Shown here piece by piece: positions 1 to 39,493 of a DNA stretch of 64,000 nt (within the stretch, counting starts at the first letter, position 1; the number at the start of each line of letters is the position of its first letter). The position numbers were made by a program, and so were the translations under genes. The notes beneath the pieces were generated by a model. The model saw only the letters and a program-made list of their open reading frames with translations. It was not told the origin of the DNA and made no database searches. Source of the DNA: Kordia aestuariivivens (GTDB lineage Bacteria > Bacteroidota > Bacteroidia > Flavobacteriales > Flavobacteriaceae); the NCBI RefSeq assembly GCF_014397005.1, contig NZ_JACGWS010000007.1, forward strand, positions 186,001-250,000. Reading direction: 5' to 3'.

Positions 1-232
1 CAAAATTATTAATACGCATAAAGGGCAAACATTTATAAATTACATTACACAACTCCGAATTGATTATGTATTGCACCAATTGAAAAATGATAAACTATTA
101 CGTTCGTATAGTATCAAAGCAATTGCAGAAGAATTAGGCTTTAAAAGTGAAGGTGTATTCTCAAGAGCATTTAAAAAACAAACTGGAATTTACCCTTCCT
201 TTTTTATCAAAAACCTAACCTCTGATTCATAA
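1..232 (+). CDS. TPR/AraC-type regulator, C-terminal fragment (cut by window edge)
   Basis: The last 76 residues of a transcriptional regulator enter from the left edge; the start is outside the window. The reading frame begins at base 2 and stops with TAA at 230-232. The visible part is the second half of an AraC-family (HTH_18) DNA-binding domain: SIKAIAEELGF, then FSRAFKKQTG and a final YPSFFIKN. It is very similar to the C-terminus of the complete regulator at 1087-2781, so it probably had the same layout (signal peptide, TPR repeats, membrane helix, HTH). Two small peptide genes follow in the same orientation, as after the second regulator. The family call is firm; the missing N-terminal layout is inferred from the paralogue. 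Confidence 0.85.
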   Translation, partial: KIINTHKGQTFINYITQLRIDYVLHQLKNDKLLRSYSIKAIAEELGFKSEGVFSRAFKKQTGIYPSFFIKNLTSDS

Positions 233-241
233 ATCTTAGGT
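224..241 (+). promoter_or_regulatory. Candidate operator upstream of peptide A1
   Basis: GATTCATAAATCTTAGGT overlaps the stop codon of the first regulator and ends 68 nt before the ATG of the peptide at 310. It resembles elements at 508-525, 2773-2790 and 3082-3099 upstream of the next three peptide genes. A role as binding site of the adjacent AraC-type regulator is inferred from recurrence and position only. Confidence 0.4.
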
Positions 242-309
242 GCCTTTTTTAGTGTCAACTCTATGCGTTTCCTATCTTCAACTCATTATTAACTTTAAAA
301 TTGAATTGT

Positions 310-483
310 ATGAAAAACAAAAAATCAATATCATTAAACTTAAGAAAAGCACGTATTGCCAACTTGAGTATGCTAAAAGCTGGAGCTCCTCCAGTTACGC
401 AGAAAGACTGTGAATCTACTCCTAAAGACTGTCCAACTACCATAACGCCCAGAACAGATAGTTTAGATAATTCAAGCGGATAA
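310..483 (+). CDS. Small lanthipeptide-type precursor (peptide A1)
   Basis: Encodes 57 residues starting MKNKKSISLNLRKARIANL, a leader of the kind seen in Bacteroidota class I lanthipeptide-type precursors (basic start, then a SLNL.K...I..L pattern). The putative core has Cys, Thr and Ser residues (KDCESTPKDCPTT) and ends in TDSLDNSSG. A double-glycine is lacking; KAGAP is the nearest thing. I chose the ATG at 310 over an upstream TTG at 301 because it puts the MKNKK leader at the N-terminus. It lies 77 nt after a regulator fragment and is paralogous to the peptide at 2852, which shares the DSL near its C-terminus. No modification enzyme is in the window, so whether the product is modified or exported is unknown. 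Confidence 0.65.
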   Translation: MKNKKSISLNLRKARIANLSMLKAGAPPVTQKDCESTPKDCPTTITPRTDSLDNSSG

Positions 484-507
484 AATAGTAAAAATGTAAA
501 CCCTGAG

Positions 508-525
508 ATTCATAAACTGAAGGTT
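508..525 (+). promoter_or_regulatory. Candidate operator upstream of peptide B1
   Basis: ATTCATAAACTGAAGGTT lies 67 nt upstream of the ATG at 593. It differs by few bases from GGTTTATAAACTGAAGGT at 2773-2790, which sits in the same relative place before peptide A2. Binding by the neighbouring regulator is inferred. Confidence 0.45.
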
Positions 526-592
526 GTCTTCTTTGTTTTGCAGGAAAAATCAAAATAATTTCATGCTATTATTAATCACAAAAATTATAGTA

Positions 593-778
593 ATGAAAAA
601 ATCAAATGTAAAATTAAGTTTAAACAAAAAACGCATTTCATTTCTGGAAACAACAGAAATTAGTGGAGGAATCACTGGAAAAGTATGTCTTTATACGAAC
701 AGACACTATCCAACGTGCTATGGAGTAAATTGCGTTACAGAAAATGATTGTACATCAGCGGTGATCGATTGTAGTTAA
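593..778 (+). CDS. Class I lanthipeptide-type precursor (peptide B1)
   Basis: Encodes 61 residues. The leader begins MKKSNVKLSLNKKRISFL and ends in ISGGITG, a double-glycine type cleavage site. The core contains five cysteines (VCLY, TCYG, NCVT, DCTS, IDCS) together with Ser and Thr, as expected for a lanthipeptide or disulfide-rich peptide. The ATG at 593 was chosen over upstream in-frame codons because the MKKSNVK start is shared with peptide B2 at 3173. The A/T-rich leader before the ATG (TATTATTAATC...AAAAATTATAG) also closely matches that of the orphan peptide at 13646. Leader-family recognition comes from memory of Bacteroidota precursor families; modification is unproven. Confidence 0.75.
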   Translation: MKKSNVKLSLNKKRISFLETTEISGGITGKVCLYTNRHYPTCYGVNCVTENDCTSAVIDCS

Positions 779-806
779 TCACTGAATTTTGATACTAAAT
801 TATTAC

Positions 807-845
807 AAAAACGCCTCATTCAAATAAAAATGAGGCGTTTTAATA
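807..845 (+). terminator. Intrinsic terminator after peptide B1
   Basis: A perfect stem, AAAACGCCTCATT paired with AATGAGGCGTTTT around an 8-nt loop, is followed by a short T/A tract. It closes the first regulator-peptide unit. Confidence 0.85.
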
Positions 846-1086
846 TATTAGATAAAGTACAAACCATTCAAATTTCAGAAATTTACGCCAAGTAGTATTT
901 AAAATTATAGCTACTATTTTAGTCGAATAGTATGTTTAAAAATTCCATTCTTCATGATTTGAGACTCCTAAATTATACTTTATGCATGTCACATTCGTTA
1001 TAAGAAAAACCATTTTCTTATATTGATATATCAGAAGTAGAAGCGTCTTGTTTATAGTACGTAACCCTTTTTAACTTAATCGTCAC
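846..1086. other. Intergenic region upstream of the second regulator
   Basis: With the terminator this makes a stretch of about 308 bases without a gene. I see one small hairpin (ATAAGAAAA/TTTTCTTAT, 1000-1021) and A/T-rich sequence presumably carrying the promoter of the regulator at 1087. No convincing TAnnTTTG element or small reading frame was found. Confidence 0.5.
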
Positions 1087-2781
1087 ATGAATTTTCGTAA
1101 CTGCATTGTATTTCTTAGTTGTTTGTTTTATTTCGGAACCATTTTTTCTCAAGATAAAGATTCGCTACAGAAATTATCTTACACTGAATTGAAAACACAG
1201 TACTTTTCCACAAAAAGCAACAATCCTGAATTAGCTATAAAATACGCTTCTGCAAGCCTGCAAAAAGCGATTCAAGAAAAGAATGAAAAAGAAGAAAATA
1301 TTGCGCGTTTACTGCTAGGCGATGCCGAAAATAATTTTGGAAACTATGAGGTTGCTTTGCAAGAAATTAACCAAACAATTGCCTATTCTAAAAAAGCAAA
1401 AAATAAAAATACACTTATATACGGCTATAAAGTAAAAGGTAGTATTTATCGCAATTTAGGAAAATACCAAAAAGCACTTGAATACTATTTAAAAGTAGAT
1501 TCTTTTGCAAAAGCGGAACAAAATTTATTACAGCAAATTAAATCGAACCACGATATAGGTTTAATTAAAGACGAAATGGGTTTGCATGCAGATGCCGCTG
1601 ATATATTTCTGGATAATTTAGAAAAAATTAAAACGCTTCCTTCTGAAAACAAAACGACCTATCTCAATATATATATTGCACTTGTAGCAACACACATCAA
1701 CTTAGATGTAAACAAAGCAACTGAATATAATGAAATTTTAAGAAAAACTTCCGAAGCTGAAAATAACAAAACAGGAATCAGTTATTACTATTTGTTTAAA
1801 GGTAAAATTGCTTGCGCTGAAAAGAACTATTTGGGCGCGCTTGAATCTTTTGAGAAAGCAGAAAAGTTGCTATCTGAATTGAAAAATGATCGCAATTTAT
1901 TCATTGTATATCGCTTTCAAGGAAAGTGTTTTTATGAATTACAATACTATCAAAAAGCAATACAAGTATTAGAAAAAGCTAAAACGCTTGAAGTTCAATA
2001 TCAATTCAACCACTTAGAGCGTTTTGAAATAGTTTTACTATTAGCCCAAAGTTATGAAGCCATAAAAGCAGATCATACTGCGCGTGAAAATTATAAAATG
2101 GCGCAGACAATCATGCAAGAAAACAATGTAGTATTGAATGCCGTGACAACAAGGCTTGAAACAAAATTTGATCTAGATTATTTAAAAAGAAAAATTATTG
2201 AGCTCGAAGAACTATCAAAAAAGAGACAATTTTACAATCAAATATTAATCTACTTAGGAATCCTATTAACAATCATTTTAGTACTATTTCTATTTAGGTA
2301 TCGTAGGCTTAAAACAAAAAACAAAGAAAAATTCAATAAGCTCCTGAATTATATTGAAGAACTTGAAGCGAATAGTCAGCAAAAAAAATCAACTACAAAA
2401 CAGCAAACTGAGAGAAAAATATCTGACGAAAAAGCAGCCAGTATATTAAAAGCTTTAAAGAAATTTGAAACAAAACACGGATATCTTGACTCGAAAACTA
2501 GTTTGACATCTGTTGCAAAAAAGTTAAATACCAATACATCGTATTTATCAAAAATAATCAACACCTATAAAGAGCAATCTTTCAAGAGTTACATTACGAC
2601 TCTCAGAATTAATTATGCGTTACAGAAATTGAAAAACGACAAGATTTTTTGTTCATACAGCATCAAAGCAATTGCTTTAGAATTGGGCTTTAAGAGTGAA
2701 GGATCATTCTCAAGAGCTTTCAAAGAACACACCGGAATTTACCCTTCATATTTTATTAAAAACATAACCCTTGGTTTATAA
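1087..2781 (+). CDS. Membrane TPR/AraC-family transcriptional regulator
   Basis: Encodes 564 residues. Layout: an N-terminal signal peptide (about 1-21, ending FGTIFSQ), TPR repeats over roughly 30-360 (for example YRNLGKYQKALEYYLKV), one hydrophobic membrane helix near 382-402, a basic and coiled stretch, then an AraC-type HTH domain from about 470 (SIKAIALELGF, FSRAFKEHTG, YPSYFIKN). This predicts a periplasmic TPR sensor joined through the membrane to a cytoplasmic DNA-binding domain. The stop codon is inside a candidate operator (2773-2790), and two small peptide genes follow in the same direction. It is the tandem paralogue of the regulator cut at the window start. The domain calls are firm; the ligand, possibly the adjacent peptides, is inferred. 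Confidence 0.88.
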   Translation: MNFRNCIVFLSCLFYFGTIFSQDKDSLQKLSYTELKTQYFSTKSNNPELAIKYASASLQKAIQEKNEKEENIARLLLGDAENNFGNYEVALQEINQTIAYSKKAKNKNTLIYGYKVKGSIYRNLGKYQKALEYYLKVDSFAKAEQNLLQQIKSNHDIGLIKDEMGLHADAADIFLDNLEKIKTLPSENKTTYLNIYIALVATHINLDVNKATEYNEILRKTSEAENNKTGISYYYLFKGKIACAEKNYLGALESFEKAEKLLSELKNDRNLFIVYRFQGKCFYELQYYQKAIQVLEKAKTLEVQYQFNHLERFEIVLLLAQSYEAIKADHTARENYKMAQTIMQENNVVLNAVTTRLETKFDLDYLKRKIIELEELSKKRQFYNQILIYLGILLTIILVLFLFRYRRLKTKNKEKFNKLLNYIEELEANSQQKKSTTKQQTERKISDEKAASILKALKKFETKHGYLDSKTSLTSVAKKLNTNTSYLSKIINTYKEQSFKSYITTLRINYALQKLKNDKIFCSYSIKAIALELGFKSEGSFSRAFKEHTGIYPSYFIKNITLGL

Positions 2782-2790
2782 ACTGAAGGT
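2773..2790 (+). promoter_or_regulatory. Candidate operator / left arm of an 18-bp inverted repeat
   Basis: GGTTTATAAACTGAAGGT ends 61 nt upstream of the ATG at 2852 and contains the stop codon of the regulator. Its exact reverse complement is at 3082-3099, so the pair brackets the peptide A2 gene. The core GTTTATAAAC is itself palindromic. It may be an operator, an inversion site or both; the operator reading is favoured because similar sites sit before other peptide genes. Confidence 0.5.
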
Positions 2791-2851
2791 TCAAATTTTA
2801 TGATATTCAATCATTATTAAATATGTTGCAATCTAACATTAAAATTATAAT

Positions 2852-3079
2852 ATGAAAAAAAGATCGATTACCTTAGGTCTAAAAAAAGTACGTGTTGCAG
2901 ATTTATCCAATATTTTCGGAAGCGGAGACGTTACAAACATTGAAAGTCAATGTGCAAATATGCCCTGCGCTAACCATAATACGGAAGCAAACACATGTGA
3001 TCCTGACAAGTCTTGCGACGGTTGTAGTACCTCACAATCAGATTCATTATCGGAAGGCGGAACTCTCATTAGTTGTTAA
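2852..3079 (+). CDS. Small lanthipeptide-type precursor (peptide A2)
   Basis: Encodes 75 residues beginning MKKRSITLGLKKVRVADL, a leader like that of peptide A1. The C-terminal part has six cysteines (SQCANMPCANH, TCDPDKSCDGC, final ISC) and many Ser, Thr and Asp residues. There is no GG at the usual leader end (FGSGDV instead); a GG occurs late, in SEGGTL. The shared DSL segment near the end links it to peptide A1, so the A type is a distinct paralogue family from the B type. It follows the regulator by 70 nt and is bracketed by an 18-bp perfect inverted repeat. Function unknown: signal, toxin or modified peptide are all possible. Confidence 0.65.
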   Translation: MKKRSITLGLKKVRVADLSNIFGSGDVTNIESQCANMPCANHNTEANTCDPDKSCDGCSTSQSDSLSEGGTLISC

Positions 3080-3081
3080 GC

Positions 3082-3099
3082 ACCTTCAGTTTATAAACC
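3082..3099 (-). promoter_or_regulatory. Candidate operator upstream of peptide B2 / right arm of inverted repeat
   Basis: ACCTTCAGTTTATAAACC is the exact reverse complement of 2773-2790 and ends 73 nt upstream of the ATG at 3173. Its distance to the start fits the other peptide genes even though its orientation is flipped. Confidence 0.5.
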
Positions 3100-3172
3100 G
3101 ACGATGGGAACATTTGTACAGAGAAAAATTCCACTCTAATTTCATGTCATTATTAATTTTAAAAATCATAAC

Positions 3173-3376
3173 ATGAAAAAATCAAATGTAAAATTGAACT
3201 TAAACAAAAGAAGTGTTTCTAACTTAAAAACAGATGCGCTTAAAGGTGGAGTTACTGGTACTACTTGTGAATTTACAAATAAGTACTACAGAACATGTTA
3301 CGCAACTTGCGATACTTTTGCAATAGACTGTATTGGATCTGTTTTTATTTGTCCACCAACAGTGGTAACATGTTAA
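3173..3376 (+). CDS. Class I lanthipeptide-type precursor (peptide B2)
   Basis: Encodes 67 residues. The leader MKKSNVKLNLNKRSVSNL leads to a LKGGVTG double-glycine site, and the core carries six cysteines (TTCEFT, RTCYATCDT, DCIGS, FICPP, VTC). It is the clear paralogue of peptide B1 (GG[IV]TG, then a C.[LF]TN..Y..CY pattern) and is preceded by the same A/T-rich leader. It ends the second regulator-peptide unit. No processing enzymes are nearby, so if it is modified or exported this must be done by enzymes encoded elsewhere. Confidence 0.75.
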   Translation: MKKSNVKLNLNKRSVSNLKTDALKGGVTGTTCEFTNKYYRTCYATCDTFAIDCIGSVFICPPTVVTC

Positions 3377-3409
3377 AAAACAATTAGTAACTCAATTACT
3401 ATTATGTAG

Positions 3410-3445
3410 AGCGAAGCATTTTTTATGAAAGTGCTTCGCTTTTAA
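3410..3445 (+). terminator. Terminator after peptide B2
   Basis: AGCGAAGCA pairs with TGCTTCGCT over a 13-nt loop and is followed by TTTT. It lies between this peptide gene and the converging gene at 3442. Confidence 0.75.
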
Positions 3446-4197: not shown

Positions 4198-4309
4198 AGT
4201 TCACAATAGAATGAATAGTTATAACGCAATAAAAGAGTTTGGTAGTATCGAACGTTAAAGTTTTAAACGAAATTTAAAAAAACAGTATCTTGTTGTTCTA
4301 ATTAATCAC

Positions 4310-12854: not shown

Positions 12855-13400
12855 ATGAAAAAAATATTTTTAGTGTGCGCAATGGCAATCGCCATTATAA
12901 GCTGTAAAAACAATACAACACCAGAAACTGTAACTGTTGATACACAAGCAGAAACTGTAAAAAAAGAAGCGAATACAAAAGATGTAGCTGCCAACTATAA
13001 CAAAGCTGAATTTAAAATTGATGGTATGACTTGTGCTATTGGTTGCGCAAAACGTATTGAAAGCAAATTAGCGTCTATGGAAGGTGTAAAATCTGCAAAG
13101 GTAGATTTTGACCAGAAATTAGCAATGGTTGAATACAACGAAGCAAAAGTTGATTTTGATGCCTTAACAAGTACTGTGGCGAAAGTTCCTGGCGATTATA
13201 AAATTTCAGACATGAAAAATGTAGATGCTTTTGCAAAAGCATGTAAGGCAGATTGCAAAATGGACTGTTGCGCTAAGAAAGGTGAAACTAAAAAAGCATG
13301 TAAAGCTGATTGTAAAATGGCGTGCTGTGCGAAGAAAGATGCTAAGAAAACCGCTTGCGCAGAAGATTGCAAGAAAGAATGTTGCACTAAGAAAGTGTAA
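12855..13400 (+). CDS. Heavy-metal-associated domain lipoprotein with Cys-rich tail
   Basis: Encodes 181 residues from the ATG at 12855, preferred to an upstream TTG at 12837 because it starts the lipoprotein signal MKKIFLVCAMAIAIISC. Residues about 50-115 are an HMA (copper-chaperone-like) domain with the motif GMTCAIGC; the two Cys should bind a soft metal such as Cu(I). The last 55 residues repeat a Cys-Lys unit three times (ACKADCKMDCCAKK, ACKADCKMACCAKK, ACAEDCKKECCTKK), giving 12 cysteines, a probable extra metal-binding tail. It is monocistronic with its own terminator. A role in copper or other metal handling is likely; the exact metal is not shown. Confidence 0.85.
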   Translation: MKKIFLVCAMAIAIISCKNNTTPETVTVDTQAETVKKEANTKDVAANYNKAEFKIDGMTCAIGCAKRIESKLASMEGVKSAKVDFDQKLAMVEYNEAKVDFDALTSTVAKVPGDYKISDMKNVDAFAKACKADCKMDCCAKKGETKKACKADCKMACCAKKDAKKTACAEDCKKECCTKKV

Positions 13401-13496: not shown

Positions 13497-13646
13497 TTAG
13501 TAACAGTAAATCCCAGGAGGACAAATTGAATGAGATGGACAGAAACATGAATGGTTTGGATCTAAACCACCCTTTGTTTCCAAAGAATTAAAATTTGTAA
13601 TCGTTTTTTTAGTAAAAGCAAGGCTTTTGATTCGTGATTTTTTCAT
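13497..13646 (-). CDS. Orphan lanthipeptide-type precursor
   Basis: Encodes 49 residues: leader MKKSRIKSLAFTKKTITNF, then LETKGGLDP with the double-glycine, and a core with four cysteines (HSCFCPSHSICPP... YC). The leader fits the MKKS..K.L.L.KK.I..L pattern of the other precursors here. Upstream of the ATG the minus strand reads GATTATTAACCAAAAATTAT, close to the leader before peptide B1. Unlike the other nine peptides, no TPR/AraC regulator gene is adjacent. Confidence 0.7.
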   Translation of the reverse strand: MKKSRIKSLAFTKKTITNFNSLETKGGLDPNHSCFCPSHSICPPGIYCY

Positions 13647-14400: not shown

Positions 14401-15701
14401 TATTTGAGTGTTACTTTTACTTGTTTCAATCGCTTATTGTCAATCACTTCCACAGTAAACGTATAGTTGCCAAAGTTTATTTTATCCTTTACTTTCGGGA
14501 AACCTCTAAATATCTCCAACACAAACCCTGCAATCGTTTCCGATTCTCCTTTGTGCGATTCAAACTCGGAAGCATCTGCAATTCCTATAATTTTATAAAA
14601 ATCTTTTAAATTCGTTTTTCCTTCAAAGACATAATTTTTATCATCAATCTTAGAATAATGTACATCTTCATCATCAAATTCGTCGCTAATATCGCCTACA
14701 ATTTCTTCAATAACATCTTCCAACGATACCAAACCAGAAGTTCCTCCGTATTCATCAACCACAATAGCTAAGTGAATTTTCTTATCTTGAAATTCGCGCA
14801 GTAAATCGTCTAGTTTTTTATTCTCGGGAACGAAATAAGGTTTTCGAAGTAAATTTACCCATCCATAATCAACAGTGTCAATATGCGGAATTAAATCTTT
14901 TACATATAAAATTCCCGAAATATCGTCCAAACTTTCTTTGTATACTGGAATTCGAGAATATCCTTTTTTGACAATTTCTTGAATTACTGTGTTGTAACTC
15001 ATATCTTCTTTCAACGCAAAAACGTCCATACGCGGTTGCATCACTTGTTTAGTATCTGTGTTTCCAAAAGAGACAATTCCCTGTAAAATTTTCTGTTCTT
15101 CTAACGTTGTTTCATTTTCAGATGTTAACTCTAATGCTTGCGATAGTTGATCAACAGAAAGATACGAACGTTGTTTTCCAAGTTTTTTCTGAATCAATCC
15201 AGATACAAAACTCATTGGCAAACTAATTGGTGTAAAAATTTTATGCAAAATATTCAGGGGATATGCCATCATCGCCGAAAATTTGTGTTTGTTTCTGCTT
15301 GCGTATACTTTTGGTAAAATTTCGCCAAAAAGTAAAATTAAAAAAGTAACAACTCCAATTTCTATCACTAATCGAATCCAAGCAGTTGTAATTCCTGAGA
15401 AAAACAAATCGCCCAGCGAAGCAAATAATAAAACCGTTGTGATATTTATAAAATTATTCGCCACTAAAATCGTTGCCAATAATTTTTTAGGATTCAGTAA
15501 CAATTTAGCGACCAATCGCAATCGTGTAGAATCAGATGCGGAAGCTTCGTTTACTTCGGTTTGTGATAAAGAAAATAGCGCTACTTCTGCTCCGGAAATT
15601 AAAGCAGAGCAAAATAATAAGATACCAAAAAAAACAATCTTAAAAATATCAAGTCCGTCAAAGGCGGTTGTAAAGATTAGTATACTGGGTTCTGGATCCA
15701 A
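14400..15701 (-). CDS. gldE: Gliding motility-associated protein GldE (CorC/HlyC-like)
   Basis: Encodes 433 residues. A DUF21/CNNM-type membrane domain (about 15-190, several helices, LFCSALISGAEVALFSLSQ) is followed by a CBS pair (about 215-335, VMQPRMDVFALKED ... VVDEYGGTSGLVSLEDV) and a CorC/HlyC C-terminal domain (to 433). This architecture is shared with magnesium/cobalt efflux proteins. In F. johnsoniae gldE lies beside gldD and extra GldE partly suppresses gldD-family defects. Here the one-base gldE/gldD overlap is kept. Confidence 0.93.
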   Translation of the reverse strand: MDPEPSILIFTTAFDGLDIFKIVFFGILLFCSALISGAEVALFSLSQTEVNEASASDSTRLRLVAKLLLNPKKLLATILVANNFINITTVLLFASLGDLFFSGITTAWIRLVIEIGVVTFLILLFGEILPKVYASRNKHKFSAMMAYPLNILHKIFTPISLPMSFVSGLIQKKLGKQRSYLSVDQLSQALELTSENETTLEEQKILQGIVSFGNTDTKQVMQPRMDVFALKEDMSYNTVIQEIVKKGYSRIPVYKESLDDISGILYVKDLIPHIDTVDYGWVNLLRKPYFVPENKKLDDLLREFQDKKIHLAIVVDEYGGTSGLVSLEDVIEEIVGDISDEFDDEDVHYSKIDDKNYVFEGKTNLKDFYKIIGIADASEFESHKGESETIAGFVLEIFRGFPKVKDKINFGNYTFTVEVIDNKRLKQVKVTLK

Positions 15702-15727
15702 AATTTCAATCGTTAATTAAACTTATT

Positions 15728-16222
15728 TTAAAATGGTAGATCATCGTCTTCTCCCGCAGGCGAAGCTTGTGGCGCTTGTTGTTGTTGTTGTGAAGGCCCT
15801 GGCTGCGCAGCTTGATGATTTGGCGTTGCGTTTGTATTTGTGTTAGTATTGCTAGCTGGCGTTCCTGTGTTCGATTGTGATTCTTTCTTGGTTGATAAAA
15901 ACGTAAAATCAGTTACTTGCACTTCCGTAGAATAGCGTGTATTTCCATCTTCACCTTGCCATTGTCTGTTTTTCAAACGTCCTTCTACATATACTTTATC
16001 GCCCTTACTCAAATATTTTTCGCAGATTTCGGCTGCTTTATTACGGACAACAATATTATGCCAATCTGTATTTACAACGCGTTCGCCTGTTTGCTTATTT
16101 GTATATGAATCGTTTGTTGCAATTGGAAAACGTCCAATACAACCGCCACCTTCAAAGTAATGCATTTTTACTTCATCGCCCAAGTGCCCTATCAACATTA
16201 CTTTATTTAGTGTTCCGCTCAT
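15728..16222 (-). CDS. ssb: Single-stranded DNA-binding protein
   Basis: Encodes 164 residues starting MSGTLNKVMLIGHLGDEV. I chose this ATG rather than one 45 nt upstream because SSB family members begin here. The OB fold spans about 1-110 (GRFPIATNDSY, VYVEGRLKNRQW), a flexible Asn/Thr/Gln/Pro-rich linker follows, and the acidic tip EDDDLPF is the protein-interaction tail. It stands between mutY and gldE on the same strand. Confidence 0.96.
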   Translation of the reverse strand: MSGTLNKVMLIGHLGDEVKMHYFEGGGCIGRFPIATNDSYTNKQTGERVVNTDWHNIVVRNKAAEICEKYLSKGDKVYVEGRLKNRQWQGEDGNTRYSTEVQVTDFTFLSTKKESQSNTGTPASNTNTNTNATPNHQAAQPGPSQQQQQAPQASPAGEDDDLPF

Positions 16223-16288
16223 GTTCTTAAATTTCTGTGTGATAAAATTATAGACTCCGTTCTTCAACGGGGTTAGTTCAACTTACAA

Positions 16289-30403: not shown

Positions 30404-30547
30404 TTAGAACGGAGAGCATGAAACTGCTCTGCTACAACTAGGTCTAAAAGTTCCTCTACCGCCTTTTACGTGATCTAATTCACTGAATTTAAAAACAGAA
30501 ATTGCTTTTTTATTAAGACTCAACGATTTAAGATTCTTTTTTTTCAT
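30404..30547 (-). CDS. Small GG-leader peptide (lanthipeptide-type precursor)
   Basis: Encodes 47 residues. The leader MKKKNLKSLSLNKKAISVF ends in HVKGGRG, and the short core has two cysteines among Ser, Arg and Thr (SCSRAVSCSPF). Its upstream 80-90 nt are a direct repeat of those before the next peptide gene (30626-30766). It is the distal gene of the module whose regulator is at 31245-32882. Whether it is modified is unknown. Confidence 0.7.
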   Translation of the reverse strand: MKKKNLKSLSLNKKAISVFKFSELDHVKGGRGTFRPSCSRAVSCSPF

Positions 30548-30630
30548 GGTATTGATTGTTTAAATATAACCTACTCTATTAAAGGTTTTCGGCTTTCCCT
30601 TAGAATATAAACATGTTAGTAATGCTTAGA
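30541..30630 (-). repeat. Direct repeat, copy 1 (peptide upstream region)
   Basis: About 90 nt, from the start codon region of the peptide at 30404-30547 back into the end of the preceding peptide gene, are repeated at 30760-30851 with few differences (shared AAGGTTTTCGGCTTTCCCTT, AATATAAACATGTTAGTAAT). Confidence 0.9.
30597..30611 (-). promoter_or_regulatory. Candidate operator upstream of the peptide at 30404
   Basis: On the minus strand TTTATATTCTAAGGG, 50 nt before the ATG, resembles the TTTATAAACTGAAGG elements before peptides A2, B1 and B2. Weak evidence by itself. Confidence 0.3.
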
Positions 30631-30766
30631 ACATATGACAATCGCCTCTTCCAGGCCAAGTTAAACAGTACCAACCAGTGATTCCTCCTTTTACTTTTTT
30701 GTACTCTATTTTAGAAATGGATTGTTTTTTTAATTCTAGAGTTTTTAATTTTAATGATTTTTTCAT
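30626..30766 (-). CDS. Small GG-leader peptide (lanthipeptide-type precursor)
   Basis: Encodes 46 residues. The leader MKKSLKLKTLELKKQSISKI leads to KVKGGITG, the same GGITG as in peptide B1, and the core WYCLTWPGRGDCHMF has two cysteines, two tryptophans and one Thr. The gene directly precedes the peptide gene at 30404 and is separated from it by the repeated upstream region. Confidence 0.7.
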   Translation of the reverse strand: MKKSLKLKTLELKKQSISKIEYKKVKGGITGWYCLTWPGRGDCHMF

Positions 30767-30979: not shown

Positions 30980-31132
30980 TTACTTAGGATCAGACGGACA
31001 ATGTAGTCGAAATGTATTGACATCGAAATCAGTAGGAATGCTTGAACCTCCTTTAATATTCTGCATAACTTCTAGGTTGATCTTTGCTATGAGTGTTTTT
31101 TTAAGATTAATTTTTGTTGCTGTTTTTTTCAT
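30980..31132 (-). CDS. Small GG-leader peptide next to the regulator at 31245
   Basis: Encodes 50 residues. The leader MKKTATKINLKKTLIAKINL ends in NIKGGSS; the rest (IPTDFDVNTFRLHCPSDPK) has only one cysteine, so lanthionine rings or internal disulfides are limited. It follows the regulator gene by 112 nt with a hairpin terminator between, so it probably has its own promoter. A single-Cys core suggests a signal peptide or a different modification. Confidence 0.68.
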   Translation of the reverse strand: MKKTATKINLKKTLIAKINLEVMQNIKGGSSIPTDFDVNTFRLHCPSDPK

Positions 31133-31195: not shown

Positions 31196-31238
31196 AAAAA
31201 GTAACGCCCTATTTTAAAGAAAATCGGGTGTTACTTTT
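31196..31238 (-). terminator. Terminator after the regulator at 31245
   Basis: AAAAAGTAACGCCC and GGGTGTTACTTTTT pair over a 15-nt loop (one G-T pair), giving a T-run on the minus strand. Confidence 0.8.
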
Positions 31239-31244: not shown

Positions 31245-32882
31245 TTATAAAACTTCCATTTTGTTTAATTCTTTTATATAATATGATGGATTTAACCCAG
31301 TTTTGTTTTTAAAGTGTTTCACAAAAGAATCATCGCTTTTGTATCCGAGTTCTGTTGCGATTGCTTTTACTGAAAATGATCTGAACTTTTTATCGTTCTT
31401 CAACCTGTTTAAAACATATTCAATCCTCAAATCATTGATGTAATCATTAAACGTTTTTCCTTTATAATTATTAATTATTTGAGATAGGTACGTAACATTT
31501 GTTTTTACTTTTTTAGCAATAGATGACAAGCTACAATTAGAATTTAAAAAATATTCTTGGTCTTCTAGTTTTTTTAATCGTTCAATTATTTCTTTAACAG
31601 TAGTATCATCAATAGCGATATATTTTATTTCATTTTTAGATTTTTTAAAGGCTGTTGTTTTTTCATTTTCTTCTAAAATTGATTTTTTTTGAATCAGCGC
31701 TTTGAAAGTTGCCTTGTTCGCTTTTTGTTTTTTTATGTATAAGAATAAGATCAAGAAGAAAGCAAAACTGGCAATTATAATTCCCCATAGCATGTAACTC
31801 ATTCGTTGTTTATCTTCTTTTCCTTGATTTTGCAATGCTACAATTTGCAGTAAAAATGTTTCACTATCTTGTTCATGAAAGGCGTTTATAGCTTTGTCTT
31901 TCGTAAGCCTTGAACTGTCTTTTAGTTTTATTACTGTATTTAGTGCTATGTTAGATTCTTTATAGTTTCCCTTTTTCGAGTAACATTTAGCTAATAAACT
32001 ATAGGTATCTATGACATTATCTTTTTCTAAATCTTCATCTTTTAGTAAAGCAATAGAATTTAATAAATACTCAATTGCATTGTCATACTTTTCAAGATCG
32101 TAATAACAAAGCGCTAAAGAATAGTTCGTGTTTACTTTAGGAAAAAAAGAGTTTGCTACATGGTTTTCTTTTAGGATTGTTTCTGCCTTGTGCAAATACA
32201 AAAATGCTTGCTCCCACTTTTTTTTATGCCGAAAAAACTTTCCTTTTTTAATGTATAAATCTAAAAGACCAGCTTGATAATTTAGTTTTTCAGCTAATGC
32301 AATTCCTTTTTCTAGATGAGGCAACATAGAATCATAATCACCTTGCGCCATAAAAGCATCACAAATCGTTGTTAGTACTTTAACATGATTCTCTTTGTTT
32401 TTAAAAGATGCTTTATCAACTAAACTTAAAGCATATACAGAAAAGTCAACTGCTTTATCTTCTTTATTTATGAATGGTAGAAACGCAATTAAACCAGAAT
32501 ACGCAATCAATTCCTGATCTACATCTTTATTCTTTTTAGCAATTGTTAATGCGTTATAATACGCTTCTATTGCCTTTTCATTTTTCCAACTATAGAGGTA
32601 TGATTTGCCTAATTTTATATAAGATCTGAATAATAGGCTATCATGTTGCATCTCTTTGGCAATCTCAATAGCTGCTATAAAATAGGAGATACTTCTTCTG
32701 TAATTTTCCTTTTTTTGTAGTTCACTGCCAATGTCTATCTGTTGCTGTAATGTTATTGTTTTATCATCTTGAAGGTTCTCTGAATTTATTGGTTTTTGTT
32801 GTGAATATGAAAAAGGGGCTATTAAAAGGAAAAAAATTCCTAATAAAACCATCCGCATCACTAACCGTTTTTTATATATCAT
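31245..32882 (-). CDS. Membrane TPR/AraC-family transcriptional regulator
   Basis: Encodes 545 residues with the same layout as the regulator at 1087: a signal peptide (LLGIFFLLIAPFSYSQ), TPR repeats over about 45-340 (SYLYSWKNEKAIEAYYNALT, CYSKKGNYKESNIALNTVI), a membrane helix near 361-384 (WGIIIASFAFFLILFLYI), and a C-terminal AraC-type HTH (SVKAIATELGYKSDDSFVKH, NPSYYIKEL). Its stop region carries TTTTATAAAAATT, like the operator overlapping the stop of the other regulators. Three GG-leader peptide genes lie downstream on the same strand. The whole module sits inside a rearranged copy of a bioB-flotillin duplication. Confidence 0.87.
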   Translation of the reverse strand: MIYKKRLVMRMVLLGIFFLLIAPFSYSQQKPINSENLQDDKTITLQQQIDIGSELQKKENYRRSISYFIAAIEIAKEMQHDSLLFRSYIKLGKSYLYSWKNEKAIEAYYNALTIAKKNKDVDQELIAYSGLIAFLPFINKEDKAVDFSVYALSLVDKASFKNKENHVKVLTTICDAFMAQGDYDSMLPHLEKGIALAEKLNYQAGLLDLYIKKGKFFRHKKKWEQAFLYLHKAETILKENHVANSFFPKVNTNYSLALCYYDLEKYDNAIEYLLNSIALLKDEDLEKDNVIDTYSLLAKCYSKKGNYKESNIALNTVIKLKDSSRLTKDKAINAFHEQDSETFLLQIVALQNQGKEDKQRMSYMLWGIIIASFAFFLILFLYIKKQKANKATFKALIQKKSILEENEKTTAFKKSKNEIKYIAIDDTTVKEIIERLKKLEDQEYFLNSNCSLSSIAKKVKTNVTYLSQIINNYKGKTFNDYINDLRIEYVLNRLKNDKKFRSFSVKAIATELGYKSDDSFVKHFKNKTGLNPSYYIKELNKMEVL

Positions 32883-35155: not shown

Positions 35156-35734
35156 TTATTGATTTAATGGTTGTACGATTAATATTCCAGTTCCTGTAAT
35201 GTCTTTAACTTTGACTACAGTTCCTGTTTTTAAAGTTTCTTCACTGTCTGCCAATGCATCCAATTCGCGTAATGCACCTTGAATATTGACATGTACTTTC
35301 CCTATTTTAGAACGATTAGCGCCTATAGTTAGATAGACTTCTCCAACATTCCCAATAGCGTTTTCAAGTTTTAAGGTTCCACTACTAACTAATTTGTTGA
35401 TGTAATAGAGTAATGCGCCCATAATGAACATCATAATGAGTCCTGCAATAGTAGAAACCAATATGGTTACTCCTTTTCCAAATCCTGCATCTAAGCATGA
35501 AATTCCTGCCCAACTAAAAATGGTAAAGAATGCAACTAGATTTTTAAAAGAAAAGAATTGAAATCCAATTCCTGTATCGCCTTCTATTTCGGCGTCTACA
35601 TCACCATCAACTCCATCGGCATCACCAATTAAAAATGTAGTGATAAGTACGAATACAAAAATTGTAGATGAAATTCCGGCAATAATCCAATAGAATTTTT
35701 CAAAATATGTCAATGCTGAAAACCATTCTTCCAT
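35156..35734 (-). CDS. NfeD-like membrane protein (flotillin partner)
   Basis: Encodes 192 residues: a hydrophobic helix near the N-terminus (FYWIIAGISSTIFVFVLIT), an acidic loop (GDADGVDGDVDAEIEGDTG), two further helices (about 65-120), then a C-terminal OB-fold-like domain (GNVGEVYLTIGANRSKIGKV ... GTVVKVKDITGTGILIVQPL). This matches the YuaF/NfeD type that accompanies flotillins. It is cotranscribed with the flotillin gene. Confidence 0.85.
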   Translation of the reverse strand: MEEWFSALTYFEKFYWIIAGISSTIFVFVLITTFLIGDADGVDGDVDAEIEGDTGIGFQFFSFKNLVAFFTIFSWAGISCLDAGFGKGVTILVSTIAGLIMMFIMGALLYYINKLVSSGTLKLENAIGNVGEVYLTIGANRSKIGKVHVNIQGALRELDALADSEETLKTGTVVKVKDITGTGILIVQPLNQ

Positions 35735-35775
35735 AGCGTACGATTTTAATTGTTAGTTTTTATTTTTTTGAAATT

Positions 35776-36942
35776 TTAGTCTTTTGTAAGCAATACTGAA
35801 ACCGCGTTTCCTCCAAACCCAACCGCGTTCACTAAAATCTTGTTTAGTTGTTTCGGTTGATTCTCATCGTTAAGATAAGGAATTGAAATGAATTGTTGGT
35901 GTTGTATCATTAGTATTGCTAATTCTATACTTAACATTCCTGAAGCTCCAAATGTGTGACCAATCTTCCACTTATTCGTAGTAAGGTTTGGCATTTCGTT
36001 ACAAAATATTTTTTTTATTGCTTGGTATTCTGCCAAATCACCTTTTATTGTTCCGGGTGCATGTAGTACAATAACATCGACTTCTTTTGGCGAATGTTTC
36101 CCTAATGCCATGCGCATCGATTTTTCAAAACAGATCCCTTCTGCTGAGATTGATGTATTGTGTTTTAGAATTTCAGTAGCATATCCGATTCCTCTGATTT
36201 TTGCCAAAGCGTTTGCCTTTTCGCCTTTTTCTATACAAATTGAAGCAGCACCTTCACCTAAAATCATGGTGTTTCGGTTTTTTTCCAAGTCTAATGACAA
36301 ACATGGATATGCTGTTTCCTTTTTTGCGTAAATGTGTAATGCTTGCATTTGCGCAATTGTAAATGGTGTTAACGGTGCTTCACTTCCGCCTACTATAAAT
36401 GTTGAAGCCATTCCAGCGGCAATCCAAGCAATTCCATTCATTAATGCATGCAAAGCTGTGGAACAGGTAATGGAATGTGATATTTGCGGACCATTTGTTT
36501 GCAAATCGTGTGCAACCCATGACGAAATATTTCCCAACGTTGTTGTTGGCGAACTTAAAGTTTGTGCATGCTGATTTTCTAAGAAATCTTTGTGATATTT
36601 TTCAAATAGTGTAGTGGCACCTCTTGACGAACCTATATTAATTCCAAAATCATTTTCATCGTTCCAACCTGCATTTTTTAGTGCAATTCGCGAAGCTAAG
36701 ATGGCATATAAAACACTATTATCTAGATTTTTATATTTTGAATTTGAATTTTTTAGTGTTTGAATTTCTCCGTATGCCGATTCTGAAAGTGGCGCTGTCA
36801 ATGCACTATTATTTTCAATTTTTTCTGTTAGAAAACAATGTGATTTTTTTGTGTAGTTTTTCCAAATCTCTGCTTGTGTACTTCCTAATGGAGATACAGA
36901 ACCCAAGCCCGTTATAGAAATACAATCCTGCATCATAATCAT
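35776..36942 (-). CDS. Beta-ketoacyl synthase (FabB/FabF-like)
   Basis: Encodes 388 residues. It has the KAS fold with the Cys nucleophile in SITCSTALHALMNG, the two His in LHAPGTIKGD and GHTFGASGMLS, and the final NAVGFGGNAVS. These are the C-H-H triad positions of condensing KAS I/II enzymes. It lies between bioB and the bioA-bioD-bioF genes on the same strand, so a link to making the pimelate moiety of biotin is possible, but the intervening genes are unrelated. The start may be any of ATGs at 36942, 36936 or 36933. Confidence 0.85.
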   Translation of the reverse strand: MIMMQDCISITGLGSVSPLGSTQAEIWKNYTKKSHCFLTEKIENNSALTAPLSESAYGEIQTLKNSNSKYKNLDNSVLYAILASRIALKNAGWNDENDFGINIGSSRGATTLFEKYHKDFLENQHAQTLSSPTTTLGNISSWVAHDLQTNGPQISHSITCSTALHALMNGIAWIAAGMASTFIVGGSEAPLTPFTIAQMQALHIYAKKETAYPCLSLDLEKNRNTMILGEGAASICIEKGEKANALAKIRGIGYATEILKHNTSISAEGICFEKSMRMALGKHSPKEVDVIVLHAPGTIKGDLAEYQAIKKIFCNEMPNLTTNKWKIGHTFGASGMLSIELAILMIQHQQFISIPYLNDENQPKQLNKILVNAVGFGGNAVSVLLTKD

Positions 36943-37105
36943 ACTAAATTAAGAGTGCTAATATCGTAAGAAATGTGATGATTTGCTAACATTTGCGAGG
37001 CTGTTTACATGTAAGTTTAGGATCGTTTATGATACTTGCTAAAAGTTACTCGCCAAGTTTTATATTTTTTCTAGTATTTTTAAATCCTAGTTTAAAAAAT
37101 TGCTG

Positions 37106-38818
37106 ATGGTTATTCGAATACAAATGCTTGCCTTATTGTTTTTGTTGATTCCTTTTTTTGTTTTAGCAGAGAGTAAAGATTCTATTGCTGCTTTTAAAGA
37201 AAAAACACTTTTACAGCAACATACTTATCTTCAAGAACGATTATATACCACAAAAGAGATTCAAGATTTTATTGCAGTTTTTTCAGATCAAGCAATTGCT
37301 AAAAAGGACACCGTTTTTATCGCAAAATCTTATTATTTTAACTATCGCCTCTATAGAAAATCTAAAGTGTATTCAAAAGCACATGCTGCAATTGACAACG
37401 CTATTTCATTAGCAAAAACGAGTCAGAATGATTCCTTGTTAGGTTCTTTTTTTCATGCAAAAGGCGCTACTTTTTATATACAATCAAACTATACTGATGC
37501 ATTGAATTATTATTTGAAAGCGTATGACATCATGCGAAACAACAGTACTATTGATAGTAAATTAACATTAGAATTTGATATTGCAACCATCAAATTGAAA
37601 GCGAATAAAACATCCGAAGCTTTGCAAGGTTTTAAAAAAATTATCCATGCGTATGATTCGCTGCTAACATTAAAACCTGATTCGCAATTTTTAAAGATTC
37701 GATTTATAAAAATGTTGAATAATACTGCAAAATCATACACTGATGAAGGCATGTATGAAGAAGCTATTGCTTTGTATTCAAAAAGCTTTTCACTCAATGA
37801 AACTACAGATTATATTTCAGGAAGATGTATCGCTATTGGCGGAAAAGGAAATGTATATACCGCGCAGAAAAAATATGATCGTGCTATTCCAATTATTGAT
37901 GAAGCACTTGCGATTTCTACCTCAAACAACGATTTAAAACTTATTACGCCTTTTTTATTATTGGATAAAGGTAAATGCTATTTTGGGTTGAAACGTTATG
38001 AAGAAGCATTGCAATCATTGACTGAAGCAGCTCGAATTATTGAGAAAGAAAAGCTGAGTTTTATGGGTCTGGACGAAACGTACCAATTTTTAGCGAAAAC
38101 ATACGTGCAATTAGGGAATCATGAAAAAGCAACTGCTATATACGATCAGTATATTGAGCGAAATAATTTTAGTACAACCAAACGATTTGAGCTGTATCAA
38201 ACCATTTTTGAAGATTATGATCTAAAGAATGTAGAACACCGTGCAGACAAAGCAGAAGAAACATCTAACTTGTTTAAAAGTTATTTTACGCAAACTATTG
38301 TAATTGCTGTATTACTTGCATTTAGTGCGATTGTATTTTTTGTATACTACCGAAATAGACAAAAGCAGAAATTAGCAAAGTTTCACAAATTGATTTCAGC
38401 ATTAAAAGCAAAAGAAGCGACAACAAACGAATCACAATCTACTGGTTATGACTATGCATTATCTGATGAAAAAGCTTCCAAAATATTAGATGATTTGGCA
38501 ATGTTTGAAACCAAATTATCTTTCCTTGATAAGAAATACAATCTGACAACCTTAGCCAAAAAGTGCAATACCAACTCTAGTTATTTGTCACAAGTGATTA
38601 ATACACATAAAGGAAAAACGTTTTCAGAATATATGGCGGATTTAAGAATTAGTTATGTACTAAATGCTTTGAAAAACGACAAAAAATTACGTTCGTACAC
38701 TATTCAATCTATTGCGGAAGAAATAGGCTTTAAGCAGTCTGAATCATTTTCAAAAGCGTTTAAAAAACGAACTGGTTTCAATCCATCTTTTTACATTAAA
38801 AATCTTGAAAATCTTTAA
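37106..38818 (+). CDS. Membrane TPR/AraC-family transcriptional regulator
   Basis: Encodes 570 residues from the ATG at 37106; the TTG at 37100 is in frame but less likely. The signal peptide (MLALLFLLIPFFVLAES), TPR repeats (about 40-370), membrane helix near 393-414 (TIVIAVLLAFSAIVFFVYY) and C-terminal AraC-type HTH (from about 470; SIAEEIGFKQSESFSKAF, NPSFYIKNL) match the other three regulators. It is followed by a peptide gene at 38929 and, beyond a terminator, a second peptide gene on the other strand at 39229. Both peptides carry the same 17-bp sequence upstream. It is divergent from the ketoacyl synthase gene. Confidence 0.88.
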   Translation: MVIRIQMLALLFLLIPFFVLAESKDSIAAFKEKTLLQQHTYLQERLYTTKEIQDFIAVFSDQAIAKKDTVFIAKSYYFNYRLYRKSKVYSKAHAAIDNAISLAKTSQNDSLLGSFFHAKGATFYIQSNYTDALNYYLKAYDIMRNNSTIDSKLTLEFDIATIKLKANKTSEALQGFKKIIHAYDSLLTLKPDSQFLKIRFIKMLNNTAKSYTDEGMYEEAIALYSKSFSLNETTDYISGRCIAIGGKGNVYTAQKKYDRAIPIIDEALAISTSNNDLKLITPFLLLDKGKCYFGLKRYEEALQSLTEAARIIEKEKLSFMGLDETYQFLAKTYVQLGNHEKATAIYDQYIERNNFSTTKRFELYQTIFEDYDLKNVEHRADKAEETSNLFKSYFTQTIVIAVLLAFSAIVFFVYYRNRQKQKLAKFHKLISALKAKEATTNESQSTGYDYALSDEKASKILDDLAMFETKLSFLDKKYNLTTLAKKCNTNSSYLSQVINTHKGKTFSEYMADLRISYVLNALKNDKKLRSYTIQSIAEEIGFKQSESFSKAFKKRTGFNPSFYIKNLENL

Positions 38819-38841
38819 GTTATGGTTTCCAATTGTAATCT

Positions 38842-38858
38842 ATTTTTATAAAAATCGA
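38842..38858 (+). promoter_or_regulatory. Candidate operator upstream of the peptide at 38929
   Basis: ATTTTTATAAAAATCGA contains the 14-bp palindrome ATTTTTATAAAAAT. The identical 17 bases occur at 39477-39493 upstream of the second peptide of this module, at about the same distance from its start (70 versus 74 nt). Confidence 0.5.
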
Positions 38859-38928
38859 TTATAAATATTGGGATTCTAAGGAATAAATAACTTCCTTCAC
38901 ACTATTAATTAACTCTAAAACTTGTATA

Positions 38929-39120
38929 ATGAAAAGTAAACTTTACAAAAAATTATCTCTTAAAAAAATTACAATTTCTACACACCATATTTATGGAGGT
39001 GGTGGAGATGAACCAAGCAAATCTAGTGCTTTTCACGAACCAACAGAAGGACCAGTCCTAGTACCGATAGAAGAAGAAGATCCTGCAATGATTAGTGATA
39101 ATCATTATAGCTGTATTTAA
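38929..39120 (+). CDS. Small acidic GG-type peptide of the regulator module
   Basis: Encodes 63 residues. The basic leader MKSKLYKKLSLKKITIST reaches a run of four glycines (IYGGGGDEP), and the remainder is acidic (EPTEGPVLVPIEEEDP) with a single cysteine as the next-to-last residue (YSCI). The near-C-terminal Cys and acidic core set it apart from the Cys-rich peptides; a signalling or thiol-linked product is conceivable. It is 110 nt after the regulator at 37106 and ends in a terminator. Confidence 0.65.
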   Translation: MKSKLYKKLSLKKITISTHHIYGGGGDEPSKSSAFHEPTEGPVLVPIEEEDPAMISDNHYSCI

Positions 39121-39133
39121 TATAAGTAAAATT

Positions 39134-39160
39134 CTCCGAGGGTTTCCCTCGGAGTTTTTA
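39134..39160 (+). terminator. Terminator after the peptide at 38929
   Basis: CTCCGAGGG pairs with CCCTCGGAG around TTT, followed by TTTTTA. Confidence 0.92.
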
Positions 39161-39228
39161 TAACGTACGTTTCCAAATCTTAAGCTATTAAAGCTGATTT
39201 ACAAGGAAGCACTTCAAAGTTCGCTAAA

Positions 39229-39402
39229 CTATAGACAAATACACCAACTCGCTGTATCTGCTCTAGAAGGAGCTGGACATAAACATAGTCCTCCAAAAAA
39301 TGTTTTAGTTTCTCTGTCGAAACCTCCTATAACTTCAACTTTTTGTAAATTAGAAACAGACTTTTTGTTTAGTGACAAGTTTTTTAAATTTTGTTTTTTC
39401 AT
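39229..39402 (-). CDS. Lanthipeptide-type precursor on the opposite strand of the module
   Basis: Encodes 57 residues. The leader MKKQNLKNLSLNKKSVSNL ends in EVIGGFD; the core has four cysteines (GLCLCPAP, WCICL) with Ser and Thr. A second GG (FFGGLC) lies ten residues further, so the cleavage site is ambiguous. It faces the peptide gene at 38929 and shares with it an upstream 17-bp sequence. Confidence 0.72.
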   Translation of the reverse strand: MKKQNLKNLSLNKKSVSNLQKVEVIGGFDRETKTFFGGLCLCPAPSRADTASWCICL

Positions 39403-39476
39403 AATGGTAAAAATTTTAAATTAGTTATAACCCAAAACTACACCCAACTTTCGCTTTACACAAACACACTTTTTCC

Positions 39477-39493
39477 ATTTTTATAAAAATCGA
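39477..39493 (-). promoter_or_regulatory. Candidate operator upstream of the peptide at 39229
   Basis: The 17 bases ATTTTTATAAAAATCGA repeat 38842-38858 exactly and lie 74 nt before the ATG at 39402. Next to it (39493-39511) is a second site, reading on the minus strand GTTTTTATAAAAACAAGGT, related to the element before peptide A2. Confidence 0.5.

Follow-up and report, generated by a model that had tools for sequence, protein, structure and literature searches.

Membrane TPR-AraC regulators, companion leader peptides and operator-like inverted repeats as candidate control units in a Kordia genome

In Bacteroidota, SusR-type one-component regulators and hybrid two-component systems join a periplasmic sensor, a membrane helix and a cytoplasmic helix-turn-helix (HTH) domain in a single chain. 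The RRNPP peptide receptors are cytosolic and carry an N-terminal Xre-type HTH. Here we analyze a 64-kb window (positions 186001-250000 of contig C44) of a 5.46-Mb Kordia genome in 46 contigs, in which regulators that combine tetratricopeptide repeats (TPR), one membrane helix (TM) and a C-terminal AraC-type HTH lie beside small genes for peptides with lanthipeptide-type leaders. To judge from the sequence statistics, such a regulator, the peptide gene directly 3' of it (its companion) and an operator-like inverted repeat before the companion very probably form a true control unit, and this unit is the new element that we describe.

The peptides themselves form a large, scattered collection of a kind already known: the richness of Kordia in precursors of ribosomally synthesized and post-translationally modified peptides (RiPPs) and the outline of the library are already published. 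As far as the accessible parts of these sources go, Bacteroidota class I lanthipeptide precursors have LxLxKx5L leaders, many ending in Gly-Gly (GG), together with C39 (Walker et al. 2020, PMC7268733), and a LanB/LanC cluster with one LanA has been named in Kordia algicida (Marsh et al. 2010, PMC3091789). Mining with TrRiPP gives Kordia as an example of richness in both radical-SAM and lanthipeptide systems, with up to 176 precursors per Bacteroidota genome (PMC11118758), a comparison of the genus merely lists lanthipeptide clusters (PMC7477175), and a survey of Flavobacteriaceae reports a proteusin-like cluster from Kordia (PMC10734526). Libraries of one enzyme with many substrates are known from the prochlorosins and synechococsins, in which SyncM has up to 79 substrates (PMC9872173; PMC12328550) and whose function is called unknown in the text available (PMC10783134). 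The closest remark comes from a survey of Bacteroidales, which in its accessible part notes TPR genes in two RiPP clusters and takes them to point to pheromone-binding regulators (PMC10352776). We found no description of the regulator-companion-operator unit in the searchable full-text literature, which leaves out most subscription papers and preprints.

Regulators and their companion peptides

The window contains four regulators and ten small peptide genes (the latter named by their first coordinate, as in p593). Where a line gives an E value, it comes from the leader hidden Markov model (HMM) described below; NF038153 is the model of class I lanthipeptide leader L1a.

1-232, + strand: regulator A, TPR-TM-AraC, C-terminal fragment; the full 565 aa lie at 14536-16233 of record L028
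310-483, + strand: companion of regulator A, 57 aa, leader ending in GA, starting 77 bp after the regulator stop
593-778, + strand: class I lanthipeptide-type precursor of 61 aa with a GG leader and a Cys-rich core (NF038153 17.4 bits, below the cut-off of 22; E 3.5e-10); this start lies inside an open reading frame (ORF) that opens at 524, or at 563 with ATG
1087-2781, + strand: regulator B, TPR-TM-AraC, 564 aa (Pfam, hydropathy)
2852-3079, + strand: companion of regulator B, 75 aa, leader without a terminal GG, 70 bp past the regulator stop (E 0.0071)
3173-3376, + strand: lanthipeptide-type precursor, 67 aa, GG leader (leader HMM)
13497-13646, - strand: orphan precursor, 49 aa, no adjoining regulator (E 3.5e-11; NF038153 12.6 bits, below cut-off)
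30404-30547, - strand: lanthipeptide-type precursor, 47 aa (NF038153 29.8 bits, above the cut-off of 22)
30626-30766, - strand: lanthipeptide-type precursor, 46 aa (E 4.1e-12; no NF038153 match)
30980-31132, - strand: companion of regulator C, 50 aa, of the type of Aquimarina LanB-locus companions (leader HMM, comparison)
31245-32882, - strand: regulator C, TPR-TM-AraC, 545 aa (Pfam, hydropathy, AlphaFold2 model)
37106-38818, + strand: regulator D, TPR-TM-AraC, 570 aa, in an ORF that opens with TTG at 37100 (Pfam, hydropathy)
38929-39120, + strand: companion of regulator D, 63 aa, 110 bp past the regulator stop (E 8e-07)
39229-39402, - strand: lanthipeptide-type precursor, 57 aa, on the strand opposite to regulator D (NF038153 22.3 bits, above the cut-off of 22)

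An earlier note on this DNA, made from the letters alone, had proposed four regulators of one layout beside nine leader peptides, with a tenth as an orphan, and both observations are borne out. Regulators B, C and D have Pfam matches above cut-off to TPR and to HTH_18, and fragment A is completed in L028. All ten peptides were recovered by a leader HMM trained on 106 leaders that each lie at least 4 kb from any TPR-TM-AraC regulator (E 4.8e-17 to 0.0071; the next ORF follows at E 0.48), and five order-2 Markov shuffles of the window gave this model no hit at E ≤ 0.01. The strict LxLxKx5L form is present in 72 of the 106 orphan leaders.

The pairing of regulator and peptide, which the earlier note had taken for a recurring module, is pronounced throughout the genome. 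HTH_18 has 64 genome matches, and 37 of these lie in open frames 540-640 aa long, which we count as regulators of this size. A leader-like ORF (score ≥ 6) starts within 350 bp 3' of 31 of these 37 regulators, compared with 38 of 502 other genes (Fisher p 2e-25), the latter being drawn from stretches mostly picked for holding leaders or regulators. The pairing is not confined to this genome: with starts up to 450 bp, it recurs in two further Kordia genomes (13/17 regulators in G120 and 11/14 in G129) and in 22 of 25 cases in LanB loci from Kordia and Aquimarina. When all sets are taken together, a companion lies within 220 bp of 73 of 90 regulators, in 69 cases at 68-157 bp; in the genome under study the count is 30/37, which includes C21:4259, whose ORF at 192 bp resembles an ordinary precursor. 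One more regulator (C45:16070) has a companion by eye that the HMM did not score, and the regulator at C4:132172 has a leader ORF at 317 bp.

We noticed that two sorts of peptide stand beside the regulators, namely the companion directly 3' and optional further precursors. Among 32 reciprocal-best regulator pairs from three Kordia genomes, the companion is present in both members of 29 pairs, in neither of two and in only one of one. By contrast, a further leader gene (score ≥ 15) lies within 2.5 kb in only 13 of the 30 units of this genome and is absent from 17. The cores differ as well: companion cores contain 7% Cys and 14% acidic residues compared with 12% and 11% in orphan precursor cores, which also contain 19% Ser plus Thr. 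In the p30980 unit, the leader is 51% identical to Aquimarina and 33% to other Kordia units, and its regulator 42% and 29%, respectively; because it is closer to Aquimarina than to other units of its own genus, this unit type spans genera.

The genome-wide leader set comes from the NF038153 search, which gave at least 144 matches at E ≤ 3; since 150 of the 235 candidates were scored, this count may miss true leaders, and the weakest of the 144 may be chance. We dropped eight rows (the six weakest plus one match each from a 34-aa and a 190-aa frame); of the 136 kept matches, 135 map to small leader ORFs, companions counted in. Inspected by eye, nearly all of these have a basic leader, mostly with GG, and a Cys-rich core. 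Joined at 1.5 kb, they form 92 clusters, and in 25 of these a member of the regulator similarity group, which also includes a few other AraC-type and TPR proteins, is among the two nearest genes on either side; the next gene group reaches 5/92. Both families are abundant in the genome, so that their adjacency might be accidental and without functional link. We regard this as hardly credible in view of the ten-fold excess of close pairs (genome-wide, 22 of the 136 leader matches lie no more than 1 kb from any of the 37 regulators, compared with 2.1 expected from coverage), the fixed 3' position with its operator, and the same pairing in Aquimarina.

The window regulators have an N-terminal hydrophobic stretch and then one strong hydrophobic stretch 174-181 residues from the C-terminal end, flanked by 5-8 Lys or Arg within the 15 residues after it and 2-3 within the 15 before it. 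The layout is general: in 35 of the 37 regulators, exactly one strong later stretch follows the N-terminal one, 163-206 residues from the C-terminal end, the two that depart from the one-helix layout being C13:58396 and C23:357586. A Pfam search of three window regulators found neither a histidine kinase nor a receiver domain at E ≤ 1. AlphaFold2 modeled regulator C (mean predicted local distance difference test score 89, predicted template-modeling score 0.66) as a TPR superhelix, a long helix across the membrane region and an AraC HTH. Searched against folds in the PDB, the model matched TPR domains best, many of them peptide-bound, with NprR-NprX at rank 36, a result that any TPR protein might give.

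Members of a second AraC-type class measure 370-375 aa and have several membrane helices (a simple hydropathy scan gives 4-6); in three Kordia genomes, one to four leader genes follow them:

L026 7586-15391 (G000:C2): locus of the 370-375 aa AraC-type class
L146 1355-3486 (G129): locus of the same class
L147 1233-3357 (G120): locus of the same class

Beside orphan precursor p13497, an ORF at 12855-13400 of the window carries Cys-rich units (KACKADCKMDCC-like) repeated at its 3' end.

Operator-like inverted repeats and their copies

Upstream of the window's peptide genes we located the following repeats and repeat copies.

218-241, + strand: operator-like inverted repeat, weak (score 5.7), centered 80 bp before companion 310
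509-524, + strand: operator core copy, about 80 bp before p593 by coordinates
2766-2791, + strand: operator-like inverted repeat, weak (score 5.5), overlapping the 3' end of regulator B, centered 73 bp before p2852
3082-3097, - strand: inverted copy of the operator core, by coordinates about 80 bp ahead of p3173
31202-31233, - strand: operator-like inverted repeat, score 8.4, centered 85 bp before companion p30980
38833-38864, + strand: operator-like inverted repeat, score 11, centered 80 bp before p38929
39471-39496, - strand: second copy of the regulator D operator, centered 81 bp before p39229

These repeats belong to a wider pattern. The 8-mer TTTATAAA, in many cases the center of a longer inverted repeat, is present in 27 of the 69 intervals between regulator and companion, compared with 2.7 in shuffles and 18 of 531 stretches 3' of other genes; the 69 include many orthologous intervals, and for this genome alone the figure is 8/29. 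Its position is tied to the companion, 26 of 29 occurrences being centered 74-87 bp before the companion start, and its distance to the regulator stop ranges from 4 to 127 bp. Scored as inverted repeats centered 70-92 bp before the start, 48% of 71 companions reach a score of at least 7; the corresponding rates are 6.5% in shuffles, 7.6% among 654 other genes and 4-8% when any of four other distance windows is used, controls that matter here since the 70-92 bp window was picked after the positions had been seen. In this genome, 13 of 30 companions reach that score (p 1e-7), and 10 of 30 reach a score of 9 compared with 2.6% of other genes (p 3e-9). A search for repeats anywhere in the regulator-companion interval was tried and rejected: at a score of at least 8 they occur in 22.5% of 71 intervals and in 17.3% of 150 stretches behind other genes. 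Because such position-free repeats are hardly commoner than behind other genes, the operator signal is clear only at the fixed position. The Bacteroidota promoter element TANNTTTG is present in 8 of 30 intervals compared with 2.8 in simple shuffles, and in 15 of 105 orphan upstream regions compared with 13.3.

The repeats also vary with their regulators. Across 40 operators, similarity of the arms correlates with similarity of the HTH domain (r 0.56; neighboring DNA 0.15), and in the 715 pairs whose HTH similarity is below 0.75 the correlation is r 0.21 (p 0.004), compared with -0.03 for the neighboring DNA. That the arms track the HTH is as expected for a regulator binding site, without amounting to proof of binding. 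The earlier note had reasoned from the protein layout that the regulators could act directly on DNA, and inverted repeats whose arms follow the regulator lend this suggestion support.

Copies of the operators extend to other precursors. Allowing up to 4 mismatches in 22, 9 of 105 orphan precursors have a copy 66-98 bp upstream, compared with 2 of 617 other genes (p 9e-7), and so do 3 of 21 precursors near a regulator; at up to 5 mismatches the counts are 14/105 for orphans and 8/617 for other genes, with 2/105 and 4/105 in two other distance windows. In the window's first module, one core precedes all four peptide genes (at 226, 509, 2775 and 3082) and is found nowhere else in the 64 kb; the chance figure of 0.01 for this pattern is no test, because the pattern was written from these very sites. 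With one mismatch, the same core stands before the companion of the next upstream regulator (L028 12163), a site not used in the pattern. Together, companion pairing, repeats that track the regulator and copies before other precursors make it very probable that the regulators control these companion and precursor genes directly, through the inverted repeat.

Two further observations concern operators. One operator type (TCGT..ATTTATAAAT..ACGA) is common to six scattered orphan precursors, and it is the type of the orthologues of the C46:125047 regulator, which makes these six a candidate regulon in trans:

G000:C2:99280, C2:100646, C2:109358, C2:232662, C9:69320 and C5:84658: orphan precursors sharing TCGT..ATTTATAAAT..ACGA

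The DNA upstream of p30404 and p30626 (window 30404-30766) is closely alike and by eye contains no operator repeat, as if it had been duplicated with another control element.

Modification, export and the candidate ligand

The earlier note had reported no LanB, LanC or exporter gene, which holds around these peptides and not for the genome, where LanB, LanC and a C39 exporter lie on contig C16. LanB (PF04738) has a single genome match (505.6 bits, C16:8242-10203), whose nearest named relatives are from Kordia species at 87-91% identity. Beside it lies LanC (LANC_like, 151.7 bits), and the translation of this stretch contains WCYG and CHG, which we take to be LanC motifs; the elimination domain Lant_dehydr_C (PF14028, 242.5 bits) is encoded by a separate gene. 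Over 18 kb the order is ECF sigma factor, TPR protein, LanC, LanB, Lant_dehydr_C, two TPR-AraC regulators, leader genes, HlyD and C39-ABC exporter. All eight Kordia LanB loci that we fetched contain LanC, LanB, Lant_dehydr_C, at least one TPR-AraC regulator, leaders, HlyD and C39-ABC, with LanB 87-91%, exporter 94-95% and first regulator 52-72% identical.

At E ≤ 0.1, each of 11 Kordia genomes has 45-98 leader matches (LanB presence covers this genome and eight named Kordia records, not each of the 11), nine LanB-bearing genomes of other genera have 1-7 matches in five cases and none in four, and each of 11 LanB-free genomes has none. The precursors are probably substrates of the single LanB. 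Alternatively, they could be unmodified or otherwise modified GG peptides that leave through a C39 exporter: eight of the ten window peptides fall below the NF038153 cut-off (six score below it, and p2852 and p30626 do not match), only two exceed it, four of the nine LanB-bearing genomes of other genera lack a leader match, and GG leaders serve radical-SAM RiPPs too. A radical-SAM identity was itself tried and rejected, since the radical-SAM target leader TIGR04149 has no match above cut-off anywhere in the genome, only weak ones. The genome also has a second C39-ABC exporter gene (C1:570281, with an Rce1-like protease and an amidohydrolase), around which the 13 kb fetched contain no leader-type ORF (E ≤ 0.1). 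Given the leaders in 11/11 Kordia and in none of the 11 LanB-free genomes, their place within the LanB locus in 8/8 Kordia records, and orphan cores rich in Cys (12%) and Ser plus Thr (19%), we consider peptides of a non-lanthipeptide kind very improbable.

Elsewhere, LanB loci take other forms. In the Psychroserpens-type loci L105, L109 and L110, four to six precursors, the majority closely alike, stand in tandem, together with a divergent second LanC-like gene and an exporter that shares 51-52% identity with the Kordia one, and a TPR-AraC regulator is absent; L114 is a contig of an Aminicenantes metagenome-assembled genome with a LanB 51% identical to that of Kordia, by transfer or mis-binning.

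Pairing, operators with their covariation, copies before other precursors and the single LanB are supported by sequence statistics. Beyond these, we infer binding, activation as the direction of control, modification in trans, export and companion sensing, arranged as follows. The regulator would be an inner-membrane protein that holds a periplasmic TPR sensor, one membrane helix and a cytoplasmic AraC-type HTH in one chain. Probably as a dimer, it would bind the inverted repeat about 80 bp before the companion start, and it would also bind the copies before some precursors, near and far, and switch them on. Precursors with the Bacteroidota class I lanthipeptide leader would be modified in trans by one LanB and LanC, cut at the GG and exported by the C39 ABC exporter, with this machinery all on another contig, and the companion would be exported by the same route. 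The companion core could then be the ligand, or part of the signal, for the TPR domain of its own regulator, which would close an autoregulatory loop private to each unit.

Evidence on the ligand comes from covariation. Among 70 regulators, TPR similarity and companion-core similarity correlate (r 0.42, p 0.0005), with nearest neighbors agreeing in 23 of 70. Mean identity in orthologous pairs is 55% for TPR, 81% for HTH and 44% for the companion core (random pairs 20%), and 35% for the further precursor core in 9 pairs (random 27%). An initial contrast in 15 units, in which the companion appeared to track the TPR domain and the precursor did not (precursor r 0.006), failed in 33 units.

Several points weigh against this scheme. 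Among distant regulators, the correlation between TPR and companion falls to r 0.08, and in the 33 units the TPR domain is tracked by the precursor at r 0.63 and by the companion at r 0.47; because the further precursor also tracks the TPR domain, the companion is not singled out as ligand. A C39/HlyD exporter is expected to send peptides outside the cell, not into the periplasm where the sensor would lie. Operator arms correlate with the TPR domain (r 0.55) at a level with the HTH (0.56; 40 operators), which fits joint inheritance, so that the case for the HTH comes from the low-similarity pairs alone. A clear repeat is missing from about half of the companions, a repeat precedes 2 of 15 precursors that follow a companion, orphans have one in 11% of cases compared with 7.6% of other genes, and copies at up to 4 mismatches reach just the 9/105 orphans and 3/21 near-regulator precursors given above. 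Six of 73 companions lack GG or GA, and 19 of 73 have at most one Cys. Four of the nine LanB-bearing genomes of other genera are without a leader match, and the LanB loci L103, L104, L105, L109, L110 and L114 are without such a regulator. Finally, the genome also encodes a class II LanM on C34 (TIGR03897 778 bits, cut-off 304; L148 5361-8273, G000:C34), with no leader-type ORF in the surrounding 12 kb (leader HMM, E ≤ 0.1), and this second synthetase may also act as a modifier.

On balance, whether the TPR domain senses the companion is an evenly poised question, and control together with companion sensing is somewhat less probable than an even case. Control through the inverted repeat may be true while the TPR domain senses something else, such as envelope damage, foreign peptides or algal or prey material, the companion being merely the first secreted product. 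Companions and precursors have the same leader type, and the covariation that is weak among distant regulators (r 0.08) and as strong for precursors would fit such a ligand. It sits less well with a companion that is nearly fixed (29/32 orthologous pairs) when further precursors are optional (13/30 units), and with companion cores that are poorer in Cys and richer in acidic residues than orphan cores; we think another ligand possible, if rather unlikely. Autoinduction by the mature product is known from class I lantibiotics, and in a nisin-like arrangement the TPR domain would read the finished lanthipeptides rather than the companion. Precursors do stand beside the regulator in units and in Kordia and Aquimarina LanB loci, and operator copies precede some of them; as 17 of 30 units in this genome lack any further leader gene within 2.5 kb (score ≥ 15), we hold this arrangement to be improbable.

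Comparison with known systems

The precursors resemble those of Walker et al. (PMC7268733) in leader motif, GG end and a C39 protease in the cluster. In the accessible text of that work the precursors sit in clusters, whereas most leader genes of the present genome are remote from LanB and occur alone or in small groups, some of them beside dedicated regulators. The K. algicida cluster is probably the locus equivalent to C16 (L097), to judge from genus, LanB and LanC and not from an accession, and the available part of its description mentions no dispersed precursors or regulators (PMC3091789). Likewise, section 7 of the TrRiPP account of Kordia contains no regulator, companion or operator (PMC11118758).

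The accessible accounts of the prochlorosins describe one synthetase with many precursors of variable cores, an economy that the present genome may share. Those systems combine a class II LanM with Nif11-type leaders (PMC10783134), whereas here LanB and LanC are separate and the leaders resemble NF038153, with at least 135 leader ORFs, companions included, and one LanB, beside one LanM. The units offer a handle on how, in a genome with more than 100 scattered lanthipeptide-type precursors, those to be expressed could be selected; the question bears on prochlorosin-like libraries as well. Because operators predict which regulator belongs to which precursor, silent peptides might be switched on regulator by regulator.

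Compared with SusR-type regulators and hybrid two-component systems, the regulators described here have a TPR sensor, are paired with leader peptides and, in the three window regulators searched with Pfam at E ≤ 1, show no kinase or receiver domain. With the RRNPP family (Rap/Rgg/NprR/PlcR) they share a TPR and a DNA-binding domain in one protein, and the adjoining companion gene may correspond to the propeptide gene of that family; RRNPP receptors are intracellular in the text available (PMC10075063), whereas here the HTH is of the AraC type and C-terminal, and the TPR part is predicted to be periplasmic. With an HTH_18 at the C-terminal end and, in 35 of 37, an N-terminal hydrophobic stretch and a single predicted membrane helix, they fall outside the cytosolic, Xre-type definition of that family. 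If companions are ligands, Bacteroidota would have a peptide signaling of their own, through a TPR receptor across the membrane. Tentatively, and at a probability somewhat short of even, one Gram-negative cell may thus hold about 30 private peptide channels, each with a receptor, its own companion ligand and its own inverted-repeat operator. With the same reserve, the companions may share modification and export with the lanthipeptides that are switched on, and the regulators may be a membrane counterpart of RRNPP that commands a dispersed RiPP library.

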